From Roseivivax isoporae LMG 25204 (GTDB lineage Bacteria > Pseudomonadota > Alphaproteobacteria > Rhodobacterales > Rhodobacteraceae), in the NCBI RefSeq assembly GCF_000521865.1, contig NZ_JAME01000042.1:1-32986 (forward strand): a stretch of 32,986 nucleotides of DNA, given 5' to 3'. The notes beneath the pieces were generated by a model, which did no database searches, had not been told where the DNA came from, and saw nothing but the letters and a program-made list of their open reading frames with translations. The position numbers and the translations under genes are program-made. This document shows positions 20,726-32,295 of this stretch, piece after piece (positions within the stretch are counted from its first letter, which is position 1; each line of letters starts with the position of its first letter).

Positions 20726-21676
20726 ATGAAAACGCTCAGCCTGGCCACGGTCATCGCAAGCCTGCTCGCCGCCGGTACCGCGCACGCCCAGTTCGCTCTC
20801 GGCGATCGCTACGTCGACAATGACGGCGACCTGATCGCCGACATCCCCGAGGACGAGTCGCAGCTCATCGACCCGGACACGCTCATCTTCGCCTATACGC
20901 CGGTCGAGGACCCGGCGGTCTATGCCGAGGTGTGGCAGGGCTTTCTCGACCACATGTCGGAAGTGACCGGCAAGGAGGTCCAGTTCTTCCCGGTGCAATC
21001 GAACGCCGCGCAGATCGAGGCGATGCGTGCGGGCCGCCTGCACGTCGCCGGCTTCAACACCGGGTCGAACCCGCTGGCCGTTGCCTGCGCCGGTTTCCGG
21101 CCGTTCGCCATGATGGCGGCCGAGGACGGCTCGTTCGGCTACGAGATGGAGATCATCACCTATCCCGATTCGGGCATCGAGGAGATCGCGGACCTCGAGG
21201 GCGAGACGCTCGCCTTCACCTCCGAGACGTCCAACTCGGGCTTCAAGGCGCCCTCGGCCATCCTCAAGGCCGAGTTCGACATGACCGCCGGCGAGGATTT
21301 CGAGGCCACCTTCTCGGGCGCGCATGACAGCTCGATCCTCGGCGTCGCCAACCAGGACTACATCGCCGCCTCCATCGCCAACTCGGTCAAGGCGCGGATG
21401 ATCGAGCGCGACGTGATCTCCGAGGACCAGATCGAGGTGGTCTACCAGTCCCAGACCTTCCCGACGACGGGCTACGGCACGGTCTACAACCTGACCCCCG
21501 AGCTGCAGGACAGCATCCGCGAGGCGTTCTTCAGCTTCGACTGGGAAGGCACCGCGCTCGCCGAGGAATTCGGCCAGAACGGCGAGGACCAGTTCATCGA
21601 GATCTCCTTCCAGGACGACTGGGAAGTGATCCGCACCATCGACGAGGCCAACGGCGTCTCGTACGACTGCAACTGA
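20726..21676 (+). CDS. phnD: PhnD-type periplasmic binding protein (phosphonate/phosphite/phosphate)
   Basis: The 316-residue protein has a Sec signal (AGTAHA cleavage near residue 21) and the PhnD fold with the family-typical stretches PVQSNAAQIEAMRAGRLHVA, GFNTGSNPLAV, and TSETSNSGFKAP at about 165-180, which forms the oxyanion-binding loop. Relatives bind phosphonates, phosphite, hypophosphite or phosphate. AGGGGA precedes the ATG. An intrinsic terminator follows the gene, so the binding protein can be made in excess over the membrane parts. Confidence 0.93.
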   Translation: MKTLSLATVIASLLAAGTAHAQFALGDRYVDNDGDLIADIPEDESQLIDPDTLIFAYTPVEDPAVYAEVWQGFLDHMSEVTGKEVQFFPVQSNAAQIEAMRAGRLHVAGFNTGSNPLAVACAGFRPFAMMAAEDGSFGYEMEIITYPDSGIEEIADLEGETLAFTSETSNSGFKAPSAILKAEFDMTAGEDFEATFSGAHDSSILGVANQDYIAASIANSVKARMIERDVISEDQIEVVYQSQTFPTTGYGTVYNLTPELQDSIREAFFSFDWEGTALAEEFGQNGEDQFIEISFQDDWEVIRTIDEANGVSYDCN

Positions 21677-21699
21677 GCCTCCCCTTCCGGCCCAGATCG

Positions 21700-21725
21700 A
21701 CGGGCGGCTCCGGCCGCCCGTTTTT
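21700..21725 (+). terminator. Intrinsic terminator/attenuator between phnD and phnC
   Basis: ACGGGCGGC (21700-21708) pairs exactly with GCCGCCCGT (21713-21721) around TCCG and is followed by TTTTT. This is the clearest Rho-independent terminator in the window. Partial read-through would set a high phnD to phnCE ratio. Confidence 0.8.
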
Positions 21726-21745
21726 CGTTCGACGAGGAGACCGCG

Positions 21746-22567
21746 ATGCTGCACCTGAAAGGTGTGTCCAAGACCTACACGAGCGGCGACCCGGCGCTCA
21801 GCGACGTGACGCTGTCGGTGCCGAAGGGCCAGATCCTCGGCCTGATCGGGCCCTCGGGCGCGGGCAAGTCGACCCTCATCCGCTGCATCAACCGGCTGGT
21901 GGAGCCGAGCGCGGGAAGTGTCACGCTGGGCGACGTGGATCTCGTGCGCCTCGGCAAGGCCGACCTGCGCCGCCAGCGGCGCCGCATCGGCATGATCTTT
22001 CAGGAATACGCGCTGGTCGAACGGCTGACAGTGATGGAGAACGTCCTGTCCGGGCGGCTGGGCTACGTGCCCTTCTGGCGCAGCTTCCTGCGCAGGTATC
22101 CCGCGCGCGACGTGCAGACGGCCTATCGCCTGCTCGACCGCGTGGGGCTGATGGACCGCGCCGACAGCCGGGCCGACGCGCTCTCGGGCGGACAGCGCCA
22201 GCGCGTGGGCATCGCCCGGGCGCTGGCGCAGGAGCCCGAGCTTTTGCTGGTGGACGAGCCGACCGCGAGCCTCGACCCCAAGACCTCGCGCCAGATCATG
22301 CGGCTCATCACCGAGATCTGCGCCGAGCGCGGGCTGCCGGCGATCGTCAACATCCATGACGTGCCGCTGGCCCAGCAGTTCATGCAGCGCATCGTCGGCC
22401 TGCGCGCGGGCCGCATCGTGTTCGACGGCCCGCCCTCCGAGCTGACCGAGGACGCGCTGACCGAGATCTACGGCGCCGAGGACTGGAACGCCATGCGCCA
22501 GGGCGATGCCGAGCAGGCCGAGGCCGAGGCGGACGCGAAACGGCGGATGGAGGCTCTGGCGCAATGA
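21746..22567 (+). CDS. phnC: PhnC-type ABC ATPase
   Basis: The 273-residue ATPase has Walker [10 protein letters not shown] (35-43), signature LSGGQ (146-150), Walker B LLLVDEP (166-172) and the switch histidine in NIHDV. The length and the phnD and phnE neighbours fit the phosphonate importer family. GAGGAGA precedes the ATG. Its stop overlaps the first phnE start by ATGA. The C-terminus ends in an acidic, Ala/Glu-rich helix (about residues 250-270). Confidence 0.94.
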
Positions 22568-23367
22568 GCACGGCCTATCCTGCCACCTGGCGCAAACCGC
22601 CGCAGCTCATCCGGTCGACGCGCTGGCGCTATGCCGTCCAGCTCGGGATCGCGCTCTACCTCGCGATGGCGCTCGGCACGATCGAGGTCGACTGGTCGCG
22701 CGTGGCCGAGGGGCTGGCGCGCGGGCAGCGTTTCGCCGCGGGCTTCCTGCAGCCGGATTTCACCAGCCGCTGGACGGACATCTCGCGCGGGCTGATCGAG
22801 AGCCTGACCATGACGCTCACCTCCACGGTGGTGGGCGTGCTGATCTCGGTGCCGATCGGCATCGGCGCGGCCGCCAACCTCGTGCCCGCGCCCGTCTACT
22901 ATGTCTGCCGCGGGATCATCGCGGTCAGCCGCGCCCTGCAGGAGGTCATCATCGCGATCTTCCTCGTGGCCATGTTCGGCTTCGGCCCCTTCGCGGGCTT
23001 CCTCACCCTGTCCTTCGCCACCATCGGCTTCCTGGCCAAGCTTCTGGCCGACGACATCGAGGAGATCGAGCCGGGCCAGGTCGAGGCCGTGCGCGCGACA
23101 GGCGCGTCGTGGGCGCAGCTCGTGGATTATGCCGTGCAGCCGCAGGTCATGCCGCGCCTGATCGGCCTGTCGCTCTACCGGCTCGACATCAACTTCCGCG
23201 AAAGCGCGGTGATCGGGATCGTCGGCGCGGGCGGCATCGGCGCGACGCTGAACACCGCGATCGACCGGTACGAATACGACAGCGCGGGCGCGATCCTGCT
23301 GCTGATCATCGGCATCGTCATGATCGCGGAATACGGCTCCAGCTACCTGAGGAAGTTCCTGCAATGA
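22564..23367 (+). CDS. phnE: PhnE-type permease, first copy
   Basis: The 267-residue membrane protein has about six hydrophobic helices and the EAA loop [20 protein letters not shown], followed by the typical [18 protein letters not shown]. It pairs with the second phnE to form the channel. It is coupled at both ends by 4-base ATGA overlaps. Confidence 0.93.
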
Positions 23368-24173
23368 CCGCCGCCCCCTATTCCGAGATCTGGCACCGCA
23401 GAACGCCGCGCGCGCGGCTCGTGCGCTGGATGGGCTGGCTGTGCCTCGTCGCCCTGTTCGTGTGGTGCTGGCAGGTGATGACCGAGACCACCATCTGGGC
23501 GTTCGTCACCGACGCGCCCCGGCAGGCCGCGGATATCGGCGGCCGGATGTGGCCGCTCGAATGGGGCTACGTGCCCGAGCTCCTGCTGCCGCTCTGGGAC
23601 ACGATCAACATCGCGACGCTCGGCACGCTCGGCGGCGTCGCGATGGCGTTTCCCATCGCCTTCCTCGCGGCGCGCAACACCACGCCCTCGGCCATGGTCC
23701 TGCGCCCCGTCGCGCTCTTCATCATCGTGGCGTCGCGCTCGATCAACGCGCTGATCTGGGCCTTGCTGCTGGTGGCGATCATCGGGCCCGGGCTCCTGGC
23801 CGGCATCGTCGCGATCGCGCTCAGGTCCATCGGCTTCGTCGGCAAGCTGCTCTACGAGGCGATCGAGGAAACCGACGCGCGGCAGATCGAGGCGGTCGCT
23901 GCCACGGGCGCGAGCGGTCCGCAGGTCCTGAACTACGGGATCCTGCCGCAGATCATGCCGGCCTTCTGGGGCATCTCGGTCTTCCGGTGGGACATCAACA
24001 TCCGCGAAAGCACGATCCTCGGCCTCGTCGGAGCAGGCGGCATCGGTCTCAAGCTCAATGCCTCGATCAACACCCTCGCATGGGACGAGGTCGCGGTGAT
24101 CCTCCTCCTGATCCTCGGCACCGTGGTCGCAAGCGAATGGGTCTCTGCCCGCCTGCGTCGAGCGATCATCTGA
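23364..24173 (+). CDS. phnE: PhnE-type permease, second copy
   Basis: The 269-residue protein is a diverged paralogue of the preceding permease, with the EAA loop EAVAATGASGPQVLNYGILP and INIRESTILGLVGAGGIG. Two distinct PhnE subunits per operon are common in Rhizobiales and Rhodobacterales. It ends the operon; the convergent peptidase gene stops 17 bases away. Confidence 0.93.
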   Translation: MTAAPYSEIWHRRTPRARLVRWMGWLCLVALFVWCWQVMTETTIWAFVTDAPRQAADIGGRMWPLEWGYVPELLLPLWDTINIATLGTLGGVAMAFPIAFLAARNTTPSAMVLRPVALFIIVASRSINALIWALLLVAIIGPGLLAGIVAIALRSIGFVGKLLYEAIEETDARQIEAVAATGASGPQVLNYGILPQIMPAFWGISVFRWDINIRESTILGLVGAGGIGLKLNASINTLAWDEVAVILLLILGTVVASEWVSARLRRAII

Positions 24174-24189: not shown

Positions 24190-26271
24190 CTACCAGATGT
24201 TCACGCGCTTCTCGGGCGCGAGCCACATCGGGTCGCCCTCGACGATCCCGAATGCCTCGTAGAAGGCGGGCAGGTGCTGGAGCGGCGCCACGGCGCGGTA
24301 GGCGGGGGCCGCGTGCGCGTCGGTGGCGGTGATCGACCTGAGGAAGTTCTCGGCCACCTCTGCCGTCCAGGTCTGCGACCACGACACGAAGCAGCGCTGG
24401 TCCGGCGTCAGGCCGTCGATCGTCACGTCGGCCTCGGGATGGTCGGCCAGGTAGCCGCGGAGGGCCTCGTGGGCGAGCGTGAGGCCGCCCACGTCGGCGA
24501 GGTTCTCGGTCACCTCGAGCGCGCCGTTGCCGAAGAGCCCCGGCAGCACCTCGAAGGCGTCGGTCTGGGCCACGAGCTTCCGCGTCTCGGCCGTGAAGGC
24601 GGCGGTGTCCTCGGGCGTCCACCAGTCGGCGATGCTGCCTTTCGCATCGAAGGCGCGGCCGAAGCTGTCGAAGCCGTGGGTCATCTCGTGGCCGATCACC
24701 GCCCCGATCCGGCAGAAGTTCACCGCCGGATCGCCGCCCGCGTCGAACATGGGCGGCAGGAGGATCGCAGCGGGTATCTCGAAGCCGTTGAGCTGGGGGT
24801 TGTAGCCGGCATTGACGACGGTCGGCAGGGTCGCGCTCGGGTCCGAGAACGCGTCGAACACCACCGGGCCGCCGAAGCGCGCGTGCTGGAGGTCCTTCCG
24901 GAAGGCGACGGCGTTGTCGACGTTGGCGACGAGGTCGCTGCCGATCTCGACGCCGGAATAATCGAGCCAGGTGTCGGGGTAGCCCACGCGGATCGTGAAG
25001 GCGTCGAGCTTTTCGGCCGCGGCCGCGCGGGTCGGTTCGGACAGCCATGCCCGCGTCGGGATCCGGCGGGCGAAGACCTCGCGCACCCGGGCGATCATGT
25101 CGGTGGCGGCGGCCTTGTCGGCCTCGGTGAAGGTGGCGGCGACGAAGATCTGACCCACGGGATGGCCGAGCACGCCCGCGATCAGGGCGAAGGCGCGGTC
25201 ACCCAGCGGCTCCAGCGTCGAGGTGCCGAGCAGCGCTTCGCCGAGCGCGCGGCCCGGCTCGTCGAACGCCGTCGTGAGCACGCCCGAATAGCCCACGACG
25301 AGGCTCACCGCCGCGTAATCCTTGAGGTCCTCCAGCGACCGCTCGCGCAGGACCCTGGACAGGACCGGGAAATAGCGCGGCTCGGGCACGGTCACGGTGT
25401 CGGGCGCCGCGTAGCCCATCGCCTCGAAGACGAGGGACAGGTCCAGCTCGGGGATCTGCGCCTGCAGCGCGTCGAGCGGCATGACGTTGTTGATGAGCGC
25501 GGGATCGTTCGCCTCGAGCGGCGAGAGTTCGCCCGCATGCAGCTCGACCTCGATCGCCACCGCGAGGTCGGCAAGGCGCGCGGCCTCCGCCGGCGACCGG
25601 CCGGCGATCTCCATGACCTGCCGGAGATAGGCACGGTAGGCTTCGAGACGCGGCGCGCCGGGCGGCTCTTCCAGCACGTCCTCGAAGGTGAGGCCGAAGG
25701 TGCCGCTCGAGGCGAACATCGCGTAGCTGCGGCTGTCCGCGAAGTCGATGTCGGGCCCGACCCGCAGGAGCAGCGCCGGTGCGGCGGTGGTCCGGGCGAA
25801 ATGTCCGATCAGACGGGCCAGGTCGTCGCGCGAGCGCACCGCCGCGACGGCGTCGAGATGCGGCTGAAGCGGCGCGATCCCGGCCGCGTCACGCGCGGCG
25901 ACGTCCATGTAGGCATTGTAGACCGTGCCGACCTGGGCCTCGGGGCTTCCCGGTGCGGCGATGTCCGCATTCCTGCCGGCCGCCGCCAGCAGGTCCGCCA
26001 TGATGGCCTTGTTGCGCGCGCCCAGCGTCTGGAAGATGCCCCATTCCACGAGCGTGTCCGGACGTTCGTTCCGGTCGAGCCACGCCCCGCCGGCATAGCG
26101 GCCGAAATCGACCCGCGGATCGACCGAGAGGTCCATGTTCTCGACCGAGAACGCGAGCTCGTCCGGCGTGGGGGCGGCGCGCTCCCCGGCCGCGAGCGGC
26201 GCGGCGGCCGCGATCGAGGTGACCAGGAGGCCGGAGGCGAAGGGCGTGAGGGCAGCGCGACGGAAAGGCAT
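24190..26271 (-). CDS. M13 family zinc metallopeptidase (neprilysin/PepO type), exported
   Basis: The 693-residue protein starts with a Sec-type signal (residues 1-30). The zinc site is HEMTH (528-532) with the third ligand E589 in ENLAD (589-593), as in M13 peptidases. The substrate-binding motif reads NAGYN instead of NAYYN. The C-terminus is RVNIW, as in bacterial PepO-like members. These enzymes cut short peptides, here probably in the periplasm or outside. The start at 26271 is preferred because the signal peptide begins there; the frame stays open far upstream, but that region belongs to the neighbouring gene. No link to arsenic is apparent. Confidence 0.9.
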   Translation of the reverse strand: MPFRRAALTPFASGLLVTSIAAAAPLAAGERAAPTPDELAFSVENMDLSVDPRVDFGRYAGGAWLDRNERPDTLVEWGIFQTLGARNKAIMADLLAAAGRNADIAAPGSPEAQVGTVYNAYMDVAARDAAGIAPLQPHLDAVAAVRSRDDLARLIGHFARTTAAPALLLRVGPDIDFADSRSYAMFASSGTFGLTFEDVLEEPPGAPRLEAYRAYLRQVMEIAGRSPAEAARLADLAVAIEVELHAGELSPLEANDPALINNVMPLDALQAQIPELDLSLVFEAMGYAAPDTVTVPEPRYFPVLSRVLRERSLEDLKDYAAVSLVVGYSGVLTTAFDEPGRALGEALLGTSTLEPLGDRAFALIAGVLGHPVGQIFVAATFTEADKAAATDMIARVREVFARRIPTRAWLSEPTRAAAAEKLDAFTIRVGYPDTWLDYSGVEIGSDLVANVDNAVAFRKDLQHARFGGPVVFDAFSDPSATLPTVVNAGYNPQLNGFEIPAAILLPPMFDAGGDPAVNFCRIGAVIGHEMTHGFDSFGRAFDAKGSIADWWTPEDTAAFTAETRKLVAQTDAFEVLPGLFGNGALEVTENLADVGGLTLAHEALRGYLADHPEADVTIDGLTPDQRCFVSWSQTWTAEVAENFLRSITATDAHAAPAYRAVAPLQHLPAFYEAFGIVEGDPMWLAPEKRVNIW

Positions 26272-26438
26272 GGCAAGGGATCCACGAAATCGGCCAACGG
26301 GTGCAGCACGTGAGGCGCCCGCGCGTGAGACCGGCCCGTGCCGTCGACATCCGAGCGCGAACGAGGCTCGCGGATTTCTCGCGCCCGCCCGTGCCTGCTG
26401 TCTATCCGGTTCGCGAAAGCGCCAGGCCGCTCGGCCGG

Positions 26439-27962
26439 TCACATCGTGTCGGTGCTTGCCCCCGGGAGCGCGGCGGGCTGCCGGGGGCCGGTGCTCGCGC
26501 CGCGGCCGGTCAGGTCCGGTCGCGGCGGAAGGACCAGAAGCTCCCCGTCGTCGTCGAGGAATCCGGACGCCCTCGTGTCCGCCACGCCCCAGACCGGGAC
26601 GGCGAGCGGCATCACCCAATCGTCGGGCGACAGGTAGGCCAGCGGCACGGCGGTGAGGTCGACCGCAGGATCGACGAAATGCTGCGCCGCGCGACCGTTC
26701 AGGGATTTCCGGATCTCCGCGCGGACCGCCACGTCGCGGTAGCCCGCGTCTTCCCAGACGTCCTCGAGGTAGCCCGCGAACTGGTGGACCATGTCGGCCC
26801 GCACCATCATCTTGTCCGCCTGCCGGGCCGTCAGGTATTCGGTCGGGGCCACCGTCCAGTGCTGCCCGTCGGCGGCGACGACGAAGCTGCCCTCCGCCTG
26901 CCGGTCGTAGATGCGCATCCGCCAGGAGAAGCGGTGCCCGTCTCCGCTCCAGCGCACCTCGGTCGGGAAGTAGGCCGCGCGGAGGGGAAGCGCGACCTGA
27001 ACGGCGATCCATCCGGCCATGGCCACCAGCGCGGCACGTGGCAGGGTCCGCGGGGCCGGAAATGCGGGCGGGGCATAGGGCGGCAGCGCCTCGAACCGGC
27101 CGAGCAGCCAGCGCGCCGCGCGCCGCGGCCAGTCCGGCGCGAAGAAGATCGTGGTCGCCGCGATGGTCAGCCACGGAAAGATGCCGATGTTGAAGAACAT
27201 GGCGTTGGCGCCGTGAAAGACGCAGTAGACCGCGAATGTCGCCAGCCGCGTCCGGTGCCAGAGCAGCAGCGGCGCACCGAGCACGTGCAGCGCGACCGTC
27301 CCCCATGTGCCCGCGAGGATCACCCAGTCGTAGCGGAACAGGGCGCCGAGGGCGACATCGTCCGCCTGGTTCCGCAGCCACAGGCCCAGCGGCTCCCCGG
27401 CCAGCCAGTCCGGCGTCAGCTTCACCAGACCGGCGAAGACCAGCATGATCTCCATCTGCGCGCGCAGGATGAAGACCGCGGCATAGGGAACGTGGTCGCG
27501 CCGGACGCGCGGTCGCAGACGCGCATCGAGCGACAGCGTCCGGTGTGCCGGCAGGACGCACAGGAGGACCAGGAACAGGAGGACCAGGTAGAAATGGTTG
27601 AGGTACTCGGCCTTGTCGAGAAGGAAGAAGTACCCGAAGCTCAGCGTCAGCGCGACGATGGCCACCCGGTAGAACAGCCCCAGCATCACGAGCAGCGCCG
27701 CCAGCCCCATGCCGAGCCAGGCCAGCTGGATGTAGGGCTCGGGGAGCGGCGTGACCCAGCCGAAGCCCGGATAGGTGAAGTGGAAGTCCGGCGCGATCCA
27801 GTAGCGCCATATCCGATCGTACCTGATGAACCGCCAGCAGTCCCAGACCAGAAGCGCGCCGAGCGCGATCCGGAAGACCGCGAGCGACAGGGCCGGGACA
27901 GGGGTCGAAAGGGCGTCCGTCGCGCGCCCCCAGAACTGCGCCGCACGGTACCTCGGGATCAT
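26439..27962 (-). CDS. HTTM-domain membrane protein (vitamin K carboxylase-like)
   Basis: The 507-residue protein has about eight to ten hydrophobic helices in its first 340 residues, starting with SLAVFRIALGALLVWDCWRF, typical of HTTM proteins. A soluble region of about 170 residues follows. HTTM proteins resemble vitamin K-dependent gamma-carboxylases, but bacterial functions are mostly unknown. The start at 27962 has GGAGAGGAC just upstream. It is divergent from a DCC thiol-oxidoreductase gene, a frequent neighbour of this family. Confidence 0.85.
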   Translation of the reverse strand: MIPRYRAAQFWGRATDALSTPVPALSLAVFRIALGALLVWDCWRFIRYDRIWRYWIAPDFHFTYPGFGWVTPLPEPYIQLAWLGMGLAALLVMLGLFYRVAIVALTLSFGYFFLLDKAEYLNHFYLVLLFLVLLCVLPAHRTLSLDARLRPRVRRDHVPYAAVFILRAQMEIMLVFAGLVKLTPDWLAGEPLGLWLRNQADDVALGALFRYDWVILAGTWGTVALHVLGAPLLLWHRTRLATFAVYCVFHGANAMFFNIGIFPWLTIAATTIFFAPDWPRRAARWLLGRFEALPPYAPPAFPAPRTLPRAALVAMAGWIAVQVALPLRAAYFPTEVRWSGDGHRFSWRMRIYDRQAEGSFVVAADGQHWTVAPTEYLTARQADKMMVRADMVHQFAGYLEDVWEDAGYRDVAVRAEIRKSLNGRAAQHFVDPAVDLTAVPLAYLSPDDWVMPLAVPVWGVADTRASGFLDDDGELLVLPPRPDLTGRGASTGPRQPAALPGASTDTM

Positions 27963-28050
27963 CTGTCCTCTCCGTCCGTCATGCTCCGGGGAATTACGTC
28001 CGGCGGCACACGTTATTCCCGCATCCGCCAGACGACCGGGAGCGAAGGCC

Positions 28051-28437
28051 ATGAGCGATCACATCACCGTCCTCTATGACGGGCACTGCCCGTTCTGCGC
28101 ATCCTACACGTCGATGCTGCGCCTGCGCGCCTCGGTCGGCCGGGTCGACCTGGTCGACGCGCGCTCGGACGATCCCCGCGTCGCCGCGGCGCGCGCCGCG
28201 GGCCACGATCTCGACGCGGGCATGGTGGTGACGTGGCGCGGCCGGCAGTTCCACGGGCGCGACGCGGTGCACCTTCTCGCCACCCTGTCGGCGCCGGGGG
28301 GGATCCTGAACGACCTGCAGCGCAGGGTCTTCGCGTCGCCGCGGCGGGCGGCCCTCGCATATCCGGTCCTCGCGCGGGGCCGGCGCCTCTTCCTTCGGCT
28401 GGCCGGGCGTCCGCCGATCGGCACGCGGCGGGAATAG
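28051..28437 (+). CDS. DCC-family thiol-oxidoreductase (DUF393)
   Basis: The 128-residue protein opens with VLYDGHCPFCASY, the family signature with the redox pair C13 and C16, on a thioredoxin-like fold. Its partner is unknown. The divergent HTTM gene 88 bases away is a common association and may be functional. GGGAGCGAAGG precedes the ATG. The C-terminus is strongly basic. Confidence 0.88.
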   Translation: MSDHITVLYDGHCPFCASYTSMLRLRASVGRVDLVDARSDDPRVAAARAAGHDLDAGMVVTWRGRQFHGRDAVHLLATLSAPGGILNDLQRRVFASPRRAALAYPVLARGRRLFLRLAGRPPIGTRRE

Positions 28438-28489: not shown

Positions 28490-28497
28490 GAATGACC

Positions 28498-28791
28498 ATG
28501 CGTTACCTTGGAACACTCGCGGCGTCCGGCCTGATGTCCGCCGCTCTCGGCCTCGCGCCGACGCCGACGCCGGCACAGGAGGCCGACATGATCCTGCGCC
28601 TCTTCAACGGCCTGATCGCGAACGAGTTCGCAGCCCGGCGCGGTGACATCCGCGGCGCCTATCGCGACGACGACGATGACGACGGGTACCGACGCCATCG
28701 CCACGACGACGATGATGACGGCAACCGGCGCGCCCGGAACGACGACGATGACGACGGTCGCTGGCGCCGCCGGAACGACGACGACGACTGA
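28498..28791 (+). CDS. Small secreted Asp-rich protein
   Basis: The 97-residue protein has a Sec signal (first 27 residues, ending PTPAQ) and a short middle region. The C-terminal half consists of runs of four to six aspartates separated by basic or aromatic triplets: DDDDDDGYRRHRH, DDDDDGNRRAR, DDDDDGRWRRRN and a final DDDD. Such tracts can chelate Ca2+ or other divalent cations; this is inference. The ATG at 28498 has AAGGAGG at the right distance; the ATG at 28492 is too close to it. The next gene encodes a larger Asp-rich protein. Confidence 0.75.
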   Translation: MRYLGTLAASGLMSAALGLAPTPTPAQEADMILRLFNGLIANEFAARRGDIRGAYRDDDDDDGYRRHRHDDDDDGNRRARNDDDDDGRWRRRNDDDD

Positions 28792-28831
28792 TCCCTCGCG
28801 CACCCGCACGACCCATCCCATGGAGGAAAAG

Positions 28832-29329
28832 ATGAAGACCACCCACTTGCATGCGCCCCTTCTCGTCGGCGCGCTCCTGCTCGCCTCGACATCGGCCGTG
28901 GCGCAATCGGCGCGGTTCTCCGACGTCGACCGGAACGGGAACGGCGTCCTGTCCTACGAGGAACTGGTTCAGAGCTTCGGCCGGCCCGGCGCCGACAGCC
29001 TGTGGTCGCGCGGCGGCGGAGACCCGCTGTCCCGGGGCGACGTCACCCGCATCAACCAGAGCCGGGACGACGACGACGACGACGGCCGGCGTGGCCGCTC
29101 GGGCCGCGACGACGACGACGACGACGGCGGCCGCGGCGGCTCGGGCCGCGACGACGACGACGACGACGACGGCGGGCGCGACGGCTCGGGCCGCGATGAC
29201 GACGACGATGACGACGGCGGCCGTGGCGGTTCCGGAGGCTCCGGCGGGGATGGAGGCGACGACGATGACGACGGCGGTCGCGGAGGCGACGACGGCGATG
29301 ACGGCGAAAGTGACGACGATGACGATTGA
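28832..29329 (+). CDS. Secreted Asp/Gly/Arg-rich repeat protein with one EF-hand
   Basis: The 165-residue protein has a Sec signal (residues 1-25, ending STSAVAQ). Residues 29-43 contain an EF-hand loop, DRNGNGVLSYEE, with D, N, N and a terminal E in the calcium-ligand positions. From about residue 78 it is low complexity: four repeats of 14-15 residues (GRDDDDDDGGRGGS type) and an acidic tail ending ESDDDDD. The ATG at 28832 has GGAGG just upstream (28822-28827); the ATG at 28820 overlaps that site. Calcium binding is likely from the EF-hand; a role in matrix or surface attachment is speculative. It is 40 bases downstream of its smaller relative. Confidence 0.78.
   Translation: MKTTHLHAPLLVGALLLASTSAVAQSARFSDVDRNGNGVLSYEELVQSFGRPGADSLWSRGGGDPLSRGDVTRINQSRDDDDDDGRRGRSGRDDDDDDGGRGGSGRDDDDDDDGGRDGSGRDDDDDDDGGRGGSGGSGGDGGDDDDDGGRGGDDGDDGESDDDDD
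29070..29300. repeat. GAC-rich repeat tract coding for poly-aspartate
   Basis: Runs of five to seven GAC/GAT codons alternate with GGCGGCCGC-like segments in units of 42-45 bp. Such tracts can slip in replication in steps of three and change the length of the protein. The antisense frames give long poly-Ser and poly-Val ORFs that are not genes. Confidence 0.8.
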
Positions 29330-29717
29330 GGCGCGCGGCCCTCGCTCGTGCTCACCAGACGACGGCACCGCACGGCCCGAGGGCCGCTCCAGGCGCAGCA
29401 CCCGCGATCGTCAAGGGCATCGGCGCCTGCCTGCAGCGTCGGTGCCTTGCCGATCGGTATAATTATCCCGCATGCCTTTCAGACGGAAACATGAACCGGC
29501 GCCGCCGCCCGCGTCGGCTGCCGGTGCGGTCCCAGGCGTTTCGATGCATCTCTGAAGTTCGTTTCGGCGAAAAACTCCGCGTCCGGGAGTACTGGGTCGA
29601 AGTGACGAACCGGTAGGACTGAAGATCCGCAAACGCCAATCCGCAATATACGCAGCTTGGTTCATTTGGACCTCGCCGGCCCGCTGATCAAGCGGAGCCG
29701 AGAGCGTCGCCGGAGGA
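29330..29717. other. Intergenic region with no recognisable gene
   Basis: About 390 bases between convergent genes, with locally lower GC. A TATAAT occurs at 29458-29463 but has no matching -35 box. Short ORFs on both strands lack codon bias and ribosome-binding sites. Confidence 0.5.
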
Positions 29718-29745
29718 GAGGGGGCGGCGCGGGTGCCGCCCCCTC
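29718..29745 (-). terminator. Hairpin after the amine oxidase/cytochrome/RidA operon
   Basis: GAGGGGGCGGC (29718-29728) pairs exactly with GCCGCCCCCTC (29735-29745) around a 6-base loop, 23 bases after the ridA-like stop on the minus strand. The 11-bp GC stem is strong, but only a pyrimidine stretch (TCTCCTCC), not a T-run, follows. Confidence 0.55.
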
Positions 29746-29767
29746 GCAGGTCACGCGGGGTCGGCGG

Positions 29768-30262
29768 TCACTCGGAGCGGACGGCCACGACCTCGATCTC
29801 GACCAGCCAGGACGGGTTCGCGAGGCCCGCGACCTCGAAGACCGAACGCGTCGGCAGGTTCGGCTGCTCCTCCGTGCCGAAATACTGGGTGTAGCCGTCC
29901 ATGAAGCCTGAGAAATCCATGCCCTCCGCACCTTCCGGCGCCACCAGGTAGACCTGCATCTTGATGACGTCGCCCATGTCGAGGTCGAGGCTCTCGAGCT
30001 TCGCATCGATCGACGCGAGCGTCGTCTCCGTCTGCGTGGTCGTGTCCCCCCAGCGCTCGGGAGAGCCGTCCTCGGCGGTCTCGTCCGCCACCTGCGGGAC
30101 CGTGCCGCTCAGGTAGACGAGGGTCGCGCCGGGCGGCACCTCGACGGCCTGCAGGATCGGGAAGTCCGAATCGGGGATCGGGTGGCGCGTCACCTCGCCG
30201 GACTGGGCCGAGGCGATGCCGGCCGAGGCGAGAAGGGCGCAGAGTGTCAGAGTGGACCGCAT
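29768..30262 (-). CDS. RidA-family imine deaminase with export signal
   Basis: The 164-residue protein is a RidA/YjgF fold preceded by a Sec signal (residues 1-20, ending GIASAQ). The catalytic arginine is kept (R139 in LPTRSVFEV), as is E155 in VEIEVVAV. Cytoplasmic RidA hydrolyses reactive imines and enamines to ketones and ammonia. A signal peptide puts this one in the periplasm, where the amine oxidase of the same operon should produce imines. The ATG abuts the stop of the cytochrome gene (TGAATG), so the two are co-translated. Confidence 0.88.
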   Translation of the reverse strand: MRSTLTLCALLASAGIASAQSGEVTRHPIPDSDFPILQAVEVPPGATLVYLSGTVPQVADETAEDGSPERWGDTTTQTETTLASIDAKLESLDLDMGDVIKMQVYLVAPEGAEGMDFSGFMDGYTQYFGTEEQPNLPTRSVFEVAGLANPSWLVEIEVVAVRSE

Positions 30263-30724
30263 TCAGTGTTCTCCCGTGGTCTGTTGAGGGTCTTCCGGAC
30301 GGGCGGAGCGCACCTGTTCGACGGTGGCATCCGACTCGTAGTCGTTCAGGCCGGTCTGGAGGTATTCCACCACCTCGACGATCTGGTCGTCGGACATGAT
30401 CGGCCCGAGCGCCGGCATGCCCTTCTGGCCGTTGACGATGATGTAGATCGGGTAGCTGGCGAACTCGAGCTGCGGGTTGTCCGCGAGCGCGGGGTACATG
30501 CCGGCGCCGAACGCCCCTTCGCCCTCGGGCATGTGGCACCCGGCGCAGACGTTGTCGTAAATCTCCTTCCCCTCCGTGCCGGTGATCGACGTGTCGGAAA
30601 AGGTCGCGAGCGGCAGCCCGGTCGCCGCGTCCTCGCGGTCGTCGCTCTGGTCGTCCTGCGCGTACGCCATGCCGGCCGAGAGCACGAACGCCGTGGAAAT
30701 CATGATCTTCAGCATCTGTCTCAT
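30263..30724 (-). CDS. Periplasmic cytochrome c, likely electron acceptor of the amine oxidase
   Basis: The 153-residue protein has a Sec signal (residues 1-22, ending GMAYAQ), one haem site CAGCH (60-64) and a probable axial methionine M103 in GMPALG. The start at 30724 overlaps the amine oxidase stop as ATGA; M4 at 30715 is an alternative. Its place between a flavin amine oxidase and an exported RidA suggests that it takes electrons from the flavin. The cytochrome fold is certain; the partner is inferred. Confidence 0.9.
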   Translation of the reverse strand: MRQMLKIMISTAFVLSAGMAYAQDDQSDDREDAATGLPLATFSDTSITGTEGKEIYDNVCAGCHMPEGEGAFGAGMYPALADNPQLEFASYPIYIIVNGQKGMPALGPIMSDDQIVEVVEYLQTGLNDYESDATVEQVRSARPEDPQQTTGEH

Positions 30725-32295
30725 CCGTTCTTGATCTTGTCGTGGAGGCGCGTGATCGCGTCGAGCGACGAGAGGATGGCGCCCTCCTGCCAGGCCGGCA
30801 GATACGAGATGTGTTCGCCGGCGCAGACGACCCGGCGGTCGATCTTGGCCGCGGCCTCGTAGTCGCGGTCCTTGTCCTGCCAGATGCCCGAACATCCGAG
30901 GACCCATGGCACCTTGTGCCACGACACGCTGACCCCGGTCTTGAACTCGTCGCGGTATTGCGGGTGGATCCGCGAGCCGTATTCGAGGGCGACTTCGAGG
31001 CGCTCCTGGGGCGTCATGGCGTTGAACTCGAAACTGTTCGGCCCGCGCCAGGTGTAGCCCCCGAGCAGGACCGCGGGTCCCCCGGACAGGTACCCGGTGG
31101 AGGGATAGCTGATCTGGGTGATCGGCAGGTCGGTGTAGCTGACCCCGCCGTAGATGTGCTCGTCCTCTTCCCAGAAGCGGCGGTTGAACTCGAGGCCCCA
31201 CTTCACCGAGCCGTTGTAGAACATGCTGTCGATGACGGAGCTGAGCTCGCCCGAGAGATTGTGGTCGATCTGGCCGAGGATCGAGAAGGGGATCGTGCAG
31301 ACGCAGTAATCGGCCGTGGAGGTCTGCTGGCCGCCGCCGCCTGTGTCCTCCCAGGTGACGGTCACGCCGTCCTCGTCCTGCTGCAGCGACAGGACCTTGG
31401 CGTTGTAGGTGATCAGGTCGCCCACCTCGCGTTCGAAGCCGCGCGCGATCTGGTCCATGCCGCCCACGGGCTGGAACATGGTCAGCTGGTGGTTCAGCGA
31501 TTCGTGGGTCGCGAGCCACGTCCACAACCTCGAATCGAGGATCGTCGACAGGTCGATGGGCGCGGTCGGCTCCGGTGCCGCGTCGAGACCGCCGCCCGGG
31601 GTCTTCGAATAGCCGCGGTAATACGCGGTATCGAGGCTCTCGACGTATTCGTACTTCTCGTTCAGCACGCCCACCGTCTTCAGGCTTTCGAGCAGCGCCT
31701 CCCGGTCGTCTGCCGTGACCATGTCGTCGAGCTTGCCCTGGTCGACCGCCTTCGCGAGCAGTTCGGAGGTATGGCCGCGATGGTCGGTGGCGATCTCCTT
31801 GAAACGCACGGGCTTGCCGCCGAACGCGTCCTGGCGGTGCAGGTAGGTGTTGTAGTTCTTCTGGATGAAGGGTTCGAGTTGGACCCCGAGCCGGCGGCAA
31901 TAGTCGAGGATCGCGTGGTGATAGTGCGGGATGCGCCAGGGCCCAGGGTTGAGGTAGTTGCCCTCGGCGAAGTCGACGTTCTGGGTCTCGCCGCCCAGCT
32001 CGGTGTAGCTGTCGCCCGAATGCAGCGTCCAGCAGCGACCGCCGGCCTTCTCGCGGAACTCGAGGACCTCGACCTCGTAGCCCGCGGCCCGCAGTTCCAG
32101 CGCCGCGGTCAGGCCGGCGAGGCCCGCGCCGAGGACCAGCACCTTCGTTCCCTCGGGCGCTCCATCGAGCTTGATCGGCCCCGAATAAGTCGAGCCCTGG
32201 GCGTGCCCCATGACCGACATTGCATGCAGCATCGCCGCGCTGCCGGCAGCGGTGCCGACGATCTGCAGCATCTGCCGTCTCGAGAGTTCTGACAT
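30721..32295 (-). CDS. Exported FAD-dependent amine/amino acid oxidase family protein
   Basis: The 524-residue protein starts with a twin-arginine-type signal (SRRQMLQIVG, cleavage near 33). The FAD-binding motif is VLVLGAGLAGLTAALEL (GxGxxG at 56-61), followed by GGRCWT, and the C-terminal FAD segment reads CAGEHISYLPAWQEGAI. The segment GPWRIPHYHHAILDY (118-132) resembles amino acid and monoamine oxidases. It oxidises an amine to an imine; the substrate is unknown. Known relatives such as NicA2 of Pseudomonas putida use cytochrome c instead of oxygen, and a cytochrome c gene follows here with a 4-base overlap. GAGGAGG lies 5 bases upstream of the ATG. Confidence 0.92.
   Translation of the reverse strand: MSELSRRQMLQIVGTAAGSAAMLHAMSVMGHAQGSTYSGPIKLDGAPEGTKVLVLGAGLAGLTAALELRAAGYEVEVLEFREKAGGRCWTLHSGDSYTELGGETQNVDFAEGNYLNPGPWRIPHYHHAILDYCRRLGVQLEPFIQKNYNTYLHRQDAFGGKPVRFKEIATDHRGHTSELLAKAVDQGKLDDMVTADDREALLESLKTVGVLNEKYEYVESLDTAYYRGYSKTPGGGLDAAPEPTAPIDLSTILDSRLWTWLATHESLNHQLTMFQPVGGMDQIARGFEREVGDLITYNAKVLSLQQDEDGVTVTWEDTGGGGQQTSTADYCVCTIPFSILGQIDHNLSGELSSVIDSMFYNGSVKWGLEFNRRFWEEDEHIYGGVSYTDLPITQISYPSTGYLSGGPAVLLGGYTWRGPNSFEFNAMTPQERLEVALEYGSRIHPQYRDEFKTGVSVSWHKVPWVLGCSGIWQDKDRDYEAAAKIDRRVVCAGEHISYLPAWQEGAILSSLDAITRLHDKIKNG

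Follow-up and report, generated by a model that had tools for sequence, protein, structure and literature searches.

Three genes in the order lao, cccA and ridA, for an L-amino acid oxidase (LAAO), a cytochrome c and a Rid protein, were found as an operon in Gluconacetobacter diazotrophicus PAL5 by Tn5 mutagenesis (GDI2456-2455-2454; Rodrigues et al., 2016, PMC5053998). In the parts of that paper available to us, lao mutants left tryptophan largely unused and made no detectable indole-3-acetic acid (IAA), the transcripts of all three genes fell in the mutant tested, and ccm mutants are cited as keeping 5% of normal IAA. Its authors propose that the cytochrome accepts electrons, that RidA hydrolyses the imine and that the LAAO is periplasmic by virtue of a twin-arginine (Tat) signal. 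PMC5053998 further cites a complex of LAAO with RidA (Vallon, 1993), and a periplasmic LAAO is drawn together with a RidA protein for the LAO1/LAO2 (RIDA) pair of Chlamydomonas, which differs from the bacterial case in being algal, in that LAO1 yields H2O2 and in that a cytochrome partner goes unmentioned in the available text (PMC10805672). The original prediction for the locus described here had supposed that no system with a periplasmic RidA in such a role had been described; the operon and the algal pair overturn that, and beyond these two the open-access literature yielded no exported RidA acting in this way.

Flavoproteins with a Tat signal encoded next to a Sec-exported cytochrome are also known from the relatives of NicA2 and Pnao, and stopped-flow measurements have assigned most of them to the cytochrome c-using dehydrogenases (Akram et al., 2025, PMC12224317). 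According to the portion of that study that was available, most NicA2-related enzymes that go with monohaem cytochromes strongly prefer the cytochrome; in an exception, the B. anthina enzyme, the reactions with O2 and with its own cytochrome are comparable, and three clade 1 enzymes, which are paired with dihaem c4 cytochromes, react modestly with them. A conserved lysine on the flavin side is present in the dehydrogenases too, and does not discriminate them from oxidases; the terms 'RidA' and 'L-amino acid' do not occur in the text. As to the Rid family, PSPTO3006 and PFL1385, both classed as Rid3, remove imines made by snake LAAO in vitro, and a ridA mutant was rescued by four of six non-RidA plasmids in a pattern independent of subfamily (PMC5619798, the text of which mentions neither periplasm, signal peptide nor cytochrome). 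Rid3 proteins keep the catalytic Arg and Glu and have Ile in place of the active-site Tyr, and RidA genes, sometimes Rid3 genes, have been reported next to those for FAD amine oxidases (Niehaus et al., PMC4433059, in the part available). Finally, the LAAO of R. opacus (PDB 2JAE), which is named an oxidase, also bears a Tat signal according to the accessible text of PMC5053998; no cytochrome or RidA partner for it came up in the literature consulted.

The three genes and their products

The window (the whole stretch of 32,986 nucleotides analysed, from Roseivivax isoporae LMG 25204) contains three minus-strand genes running without gaps from 32295 to 29768 and encoding a flavoprotein, then a cytochrome c, then a RidA protein, each overlapping its neighbour by 4 nt or abutting it:

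30721..32295, minus strand: lao, Tat-signal LAAO-like FAD flavoprotein, 524 aa (PF01593, 2JAE match, SRRQMLQ, conserved residues)
30263..30724, minus strand: cccA-like gene, monohaem cytochrome c with predicted Sec export, 153 aa from ATG (PF13442, CAGCH, M104)
29768..30262, minus strand: ridA, Rid3-type predicted imine deaminase with predicted Sec export, 164 aa (PF01042, PDB matches, R139, I36)
29718..29745, minus strand: G+C-rich hairpin of 11 bp, 22 nt past the ridA stop, without a U-run (from folding)

The lao stop TGA (30723-30721) and the cytochrome ATG (30724-30722) overlap as ATGA, and the RidA ATG (30262-30260) directly abuts the cytochrome stop (30265-30263). Pfam matches were to Amino_oxidase (PF01593, E 8e-52), Cytochrome_CBB3 (PF13442, 4.8e-13) and Ribonuc_L-PSP (PF01042, 6.6e-16). 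The overlapping or abutting trio with export signals throughout was thus correctly foreseen, in coordinates and strand as well as in the Tat signal of the flavoprotein and the Sec-like signals of the other two. Region 29680-29770 has a folding z of -3.57, with equal stability in none of 200 shuffles, and the hairpin at 29718-29745 is a possible transcript end for the trio; a scan for intrinsic terminators returned no site at the locus, the hairpin included, and a promoter scan of the locus none either.

For comparison, relatives were gathered by scanning a single genome for each species, the best 80 of 124 being taken (loci are numbered from L001). The resulting alignments hold 77 LAAO, 72 cytochrome and 61 RidA members, after removal of L069 and L073 from the first, L002 and L004 from the second and L005, in which RidA is cut by a contig end, from the third.

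Among the matches listed, the closest solved relative of the flavoprotein is the R. opacus LAAO 2JAE (E 5.4e-91, residues 50-521), followed by an ancestral and other LAAOs; the near-full-length solved matches listed are LAAOs, with 5ts5 named only 'Amine oxidase', and the other PDB matches listed cover parts of the protein, often the FAD motif alone. The R. opacus enzyme is accordingly a full-length homologue in which the Arg, Tyr, Lys and Trp are conserved: R121, K365 and W502 were present in 77 of 77 aligned relatives and Y414 in 74 of 77. R121 and Y414 correspond to the LAAO residues that we take to bind the substrate carboxylate. Given the LAAO-type similarity and the conservation of these two residues, L-amino acids are the expected substrates, and the flavoprotein, which is LAAO-like, is probably an L-amino acid dehydrogenase or oxidase. 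The 'amine dehydrogenase' of the original prediction has to be amended in this sense. A NicA2-type amine substrate was considered and rejected, the near-full-length solved matches being LAAOs and the other rows listed partial. A twin-arginine motif, SRRQMLQ, lies near the N terminus, and an RR (or KR) motif occurs within the first 30 residues of all 78 LAAO relatives with a readable start (among the best 80 of 124).

In the cytochrome, the single CxxCH (CAGCH; C61/C64/H65, P0001 numbering) recurs in every one of the family members aligned (72 of 72), as does M104 (same numbering), a candidate, and likely, second haem ligand. Its N terminus, MLKIMISTAFVLSAGMAYA, is signal-like by a home-made predictor, which found a signal on 71 of 74 cytochromes of relatives (best 80 of 124); among the other three, L002 and L004 have no start by the rule applied and L003 was read from too early a start. 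The window resembles NicA2, Pnao and the relatives described in 2025 in having a Tat flavin amine oxidoreductase beside a Sec cytochrome c, which is monohaem as in clades 2 and 3, but those enzymes were found by their similarity to NicA2, whereas the window flavoprotein is LAAO-like.

The best PDB matches of the RidA protein were PSPTO3006 (1.6e-32) and PFL1385 (1e-24), which makes its closest solved homologues proteins with imine deaminase activity on LAAO products. R139 and I36 (aligned to the Tyr of TdcF) are present in 61 of 61 members, and either E155 (60/61) or E157 (58/61) may be the catalytic Glu. By these residue marks the protein is of Rid3 type, and a predicted imine deaminase. The haem site and the catalytic arginine of RidA, both expected to be intact, are in fact invariant (72/72 and 61/61).

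The N terminus of the window RidA, MRSTLTLCALLASAGIASA, is also signal-like, and it aligns with the start of the PFL1385 chain, which is signal-like too. A likely signal peptide was predicted on 62 of 62 RidAs of relatives (best 80 of 124) when starts up to 25 residues from the expected one were allowed; the nearest start suffices for 59, and the other three need a different one in this range. The predictor is home-made (not SignalP), simple and lenient, and it also called a signal for 12 of 62 mature RidA sequences when these were treated as starts, and for 36% of N termini after shuffling. Five Rid-family genes were found in the window genome, and a signal-like N terminus on the window RidA alone: none of the other four proteins gave a signal with any start codon tried. 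A cytoplasmic RidA, the alternative considered here, is opposed by the signal-like N terminus of every RidA from the relatives (62 of 62; best 80 of 124), as judged by this lenient predictor. A loose lipobox pattern was present in five of the 62 RidA N termini, and three of them appear lipoprotein-like by eye (L035, L036 and L070, with LALAGC, LLVSC and LLGGC), which suggests that these RidAs are membrane-anchored.

Homology to the G. diazotrophicus proteins was judged indirectly, from six published RT-qPCR primers, whose translations (short peptides only) were slid along the three family profiles. In all six cases the best-scoring place was the corresponding position: YPSHGYF (404) and QVIHPNY (447) of the LAAO fell best at window residues 397 and 441, AIYQHV (41) and NYVRSH (108) of the cytochrome at 55 and 121, and ASTIYL (48) and KLGKID (113) of RidA at 46 and 111. 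The almost equal offsets of the RidA peptides suggest that G. diazotrophicus RidA likewise carries an N-terminal extension of signal-peptide size. The same three families stand in the same order in one operon, with a Tat signal on the LAAO, and on this sequence evidence the window trio is a member of the lao–cccA–ridA kind already described in G. diazotrophicus in 2016. The published account differs in that, in its available text, a signal peptide is mentioned for the LAAO only and the role is tied to indole-3-acetic acid; RidA is the subject at none of the four places there where signal peptide, export, secretion or translocation is mentioned (PMC5053998).

Conservation and spread of the trio

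Within the best 80 of 124 relatives, 74 loci encode the cytochrome and 62 RidA; 59 have the complete trio, of which 57 share the gene order of the window and two (L036 and L070) have ridA some 5.7 kb upstream. The remaining loci comprise 15 with lao and cytochrome, three with lao and RidA, two with neither partner and one (L034) without an intact lao frame. Spacing is at most 200 nt in 70 of 71 measurable lao–cytochrome pairs and 55 of 57 measurable cytochrome–RidA pairs. The trio spans alpha-, beta- and gammaproteobacteria, Palleronia marisminoris being one of its carriers, with LAAO identity as low as 44% (L076), and the next commonest neighbour family, by eye an ABC ATPase, occurs in only 14 of the 80 stretches (shadow frames of the trio excluded). 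An association this frequent, over such diverse taxa and at such low identity, goes beyond chance, and the co-occurrence of the three families with signal peptides that had been put forward as a check is borne out. We conclude that the trio is a genuine, conserved set of genes that makes functional sense.

In the LAAO tree, built from the window and 77 relatives (78 rows), 72 rows group as a Pseudomonadota clade with full support; every one of them, window included, has the cytochrome, and 15 lack RidA. The cytochrome-only state requires at least seven changes on this tree. At the 15 loci with lao and cytochrome, an HMM of the 61 RidAs found no other Rid match within the flank, and the next open frames, read by eye, revealed no common substitute. 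Outside the clade, a long-branched Duganella row has all three genes, and two Chitinophagaceae loci have a Tat-signal LAAO with no cytochrome or RidA match in the flank. In three Paenibacillus loci (L077-L079), the gene after that for a Tat-signal LAAO encodes a RidA whose N terminus is signal-like, and there is no cytochrome match in the flank. As far as gene content goes, then, in Pseudomonadota it is the cytochrome that forms the core partner of the LAAO, and the exported RidA, which follows a LAAO even where the cytochrome is lacking, is tied to the LAAO reaction rather than to the cytochrome, and is dispensable. The Paenibacillus loci offer a natural comparison for the role of RidA.

Within the family, a lao match at E 1e-100 was found in 13 of 394 genomes, window included, and the other genome of the genus examined was without one. 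The 12 further family loci have the cytochrome in 10 cases and RidA in four (flanks of about 1.5 kb); they were not pooled with the 80, as L088, L090, L091 and L092 repeat L005, L007, L009 and L014. Relatives in the plasmid collection numbered 37 records at E 1e-40, many annotated as 'flavin monoamine oxidase family', and the surroundings of four were viewed in a gene table that is incomplete. On a Sulfitobacter faviae plasmid the trio is annotated in the same order, with IS3 transposases on both flanks. On plasmid pDSHI02 of Dinoroseobacter shibae, the lao and cytochrome genes are preceded on their strand by ctaD, a small gene and one for cytochrome oxidase assembly, with no RidA annotated at that locus in the incomplete table. 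The D. shibae ctaD piece matched only L093 and L094 among loci L001-L098, so a neighbourhood of this kind is rare, with no instance among the 80 relatives. The cytochrome gene is upstream of the flavoprotein gene in Deinococcus radiodurans and downstream of it in Rhizobium gallicum, in each case with no annotated RidA within 3 kb (again by the incomplete table). From its patchiness in the family and its relatives on plasmids, the module looks accessory. The window genome has four COX1 matches, one to CcmF and one to TatC.

A probable L-amino acid dehydrogenase module of the periplasm

What the genomes show directly, from gene order and protein families to intact catalytic residues, likely export signals and conservation, leads us to regard the trio as a likely periplasmic L-amino acid dehydrogenase module. 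After export in the folded state by the Tat route, the FAD enzyme would oxidize L-amino acids to 2-imino acids; electrons would leave the reduced flavin singly for the co-encoded cytochrome c, which would hand them on to a cytochrome c oxidase. In the same compartment the exported Rid3-type RidA would speed the conversion of 2-imino acid to 2-oxo acid and ammonium. Substrate, main electron acceptor and RidA activity are assigned here by analogy with the relatives named above. The identity and substrate residues of the LAAO favour this scheme, as do the presence of the cytochrome in 74 of 80 relatives (best 80 of 124) and throughout the clade, the contrast between the RidA signals of the relatives and their absence from the four paralogues of the window genome, and the ctaD that precedes the D. 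shibae pair, together with the COX1, CcmF and TatC matches of the window genome. From the literature, as far as the sources were available, come the association of a Tat flavoprotein and cytochrome c with dehydrogenases in the NicA2 relatives (PMC12224317), the phenotypes of the G. diazotrophicus lao and ccm mutants (PMC5053998) and the action of Rid3 proteins on LAAO-made imines (PMC5619798). The original idea of a co-exported amine oxidase, cytochrome and imine hydrolase thus gains from the NicA2-relative operons and the Rid3 activities, and loses its amine substrate.

Several observations pull the other way. In the available parts of the cited literature, no LAAO-type enzyme is tested with its own cytochrome; the solved relatives are named oxidases; and the Tat and cytochrome signpost is imperfect, as the B. 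anthina and three clade 1 enzymes demonstrate (PMC12224317). The invariant K365, a lysine associated with O2 reactivity, does not discriminate, since dehydrogenases keep such a lysine too. RidA is absent from 15 of the 72 clade rows and present in only four of the 12 further family loci, and the module is patchy, being found in 13 of 394 family genomes and lacking a match in the other genome of the genus.

It is unlikely, in our estimation, that RidA is a passenger or has a role other than imine hydrolysis (e.g. protein protection). Its repeated absence from the clade speaks for such a reading, and imines also hydrolyse spontaneously. Against it are the invariance of R139 and of the Rid3 isoleucine (61/61), the RidA with a signal-like N terminus that follows a cytochrome-less LAAO in Paenibacillus, and the two Rid3 proteins measured acting on LAAO imines in the available text of PMC5619798.

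Quite unlikely, too, is an H2O2-forming periplasmic L-amino acid oxidase, with the cytochrome as peroxide scavenger or minor acceptor. The names of the nearest solved relatives and the conserved flavin-side lysine would suit such an enzyme, as would the Tat-signal relatives without a cytochrome match in the flank (three in Paenibacillus, two in Chitinophagaceae) and the one published Tat/cytochrome enzyme that reacts comparably with O2. The unbroken presence of the cytochrome in the clade (72/72) argues against it, however, as do the ctaD near the D. shibae pair and the strong preference for cytochrome of most measured enzymes with such a gene arrangement and a monohaem cytochrome (PMC12224317, in the part available). 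Despite the breadth of the Amino_oxidase family and the many relatives annotated as 'flavin monoamine oxidase family', a non-amino-acid amine as substrate, as first proposed, is very improbable in view of the near-full-length LAAO matches (5ts5 'Amine oxidase', among the matches listed), the conserved Arg and Tyr, presumed to bind carboxylate, and the need for the G. diazotrophicus relative in tryptophan use.

Returning to the dehydrogenase module, we lean, by a little, towards the broader proposition that another, independent cytochrome c-using dehydrogenase lineage lies within the LAAO branch across Pseudomonadota and is served by a dedicated exported Rid3 branch that would carry out periplasmic imine hydrolysis. 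If so, many proteins annotated as 'flavin monoamine oxidase' would be respiratory L-amino acid dehydrogenases, through which cells could draw energy and ammonium from extracytoplasmic amino acids with no formation of peroxide. Rid proteins, known for metabolite repair in the cytoplasm, would gain a periplasmic role, and the loss of auxin in cytochrome c maturation mutants of G. diazotrophicus would be accounted for in part.

Finally, we draw attention to genes close to the trio in the window. The gene at 28643-29329 (plus strand) codes for Asp-rich repeats, in which runs of D stand between Gly/Arg residues, and its product matches the EF-hand below threshold (20.2 bits against a cut-off of 25.4); the open reading frame just before it (28492-28791) ends in a comparable Asp-rich tail, without any match in Pfam. 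A protein with HTTM and vitamin K-dependent gamma-carboxylase lumenal domains (26439-28052, minus strand) is adjoined on the opposite strand by a DCC1-like thiol-disulfide oxidoreductase (27826-28437, plus strand). Further along are an M13 family metallopeptidase (24190-26310, minus strand) and a phosphonate-type ABC transporter made up of a binding protein, an ATPase and two permeases (20726-24173, plus strand).
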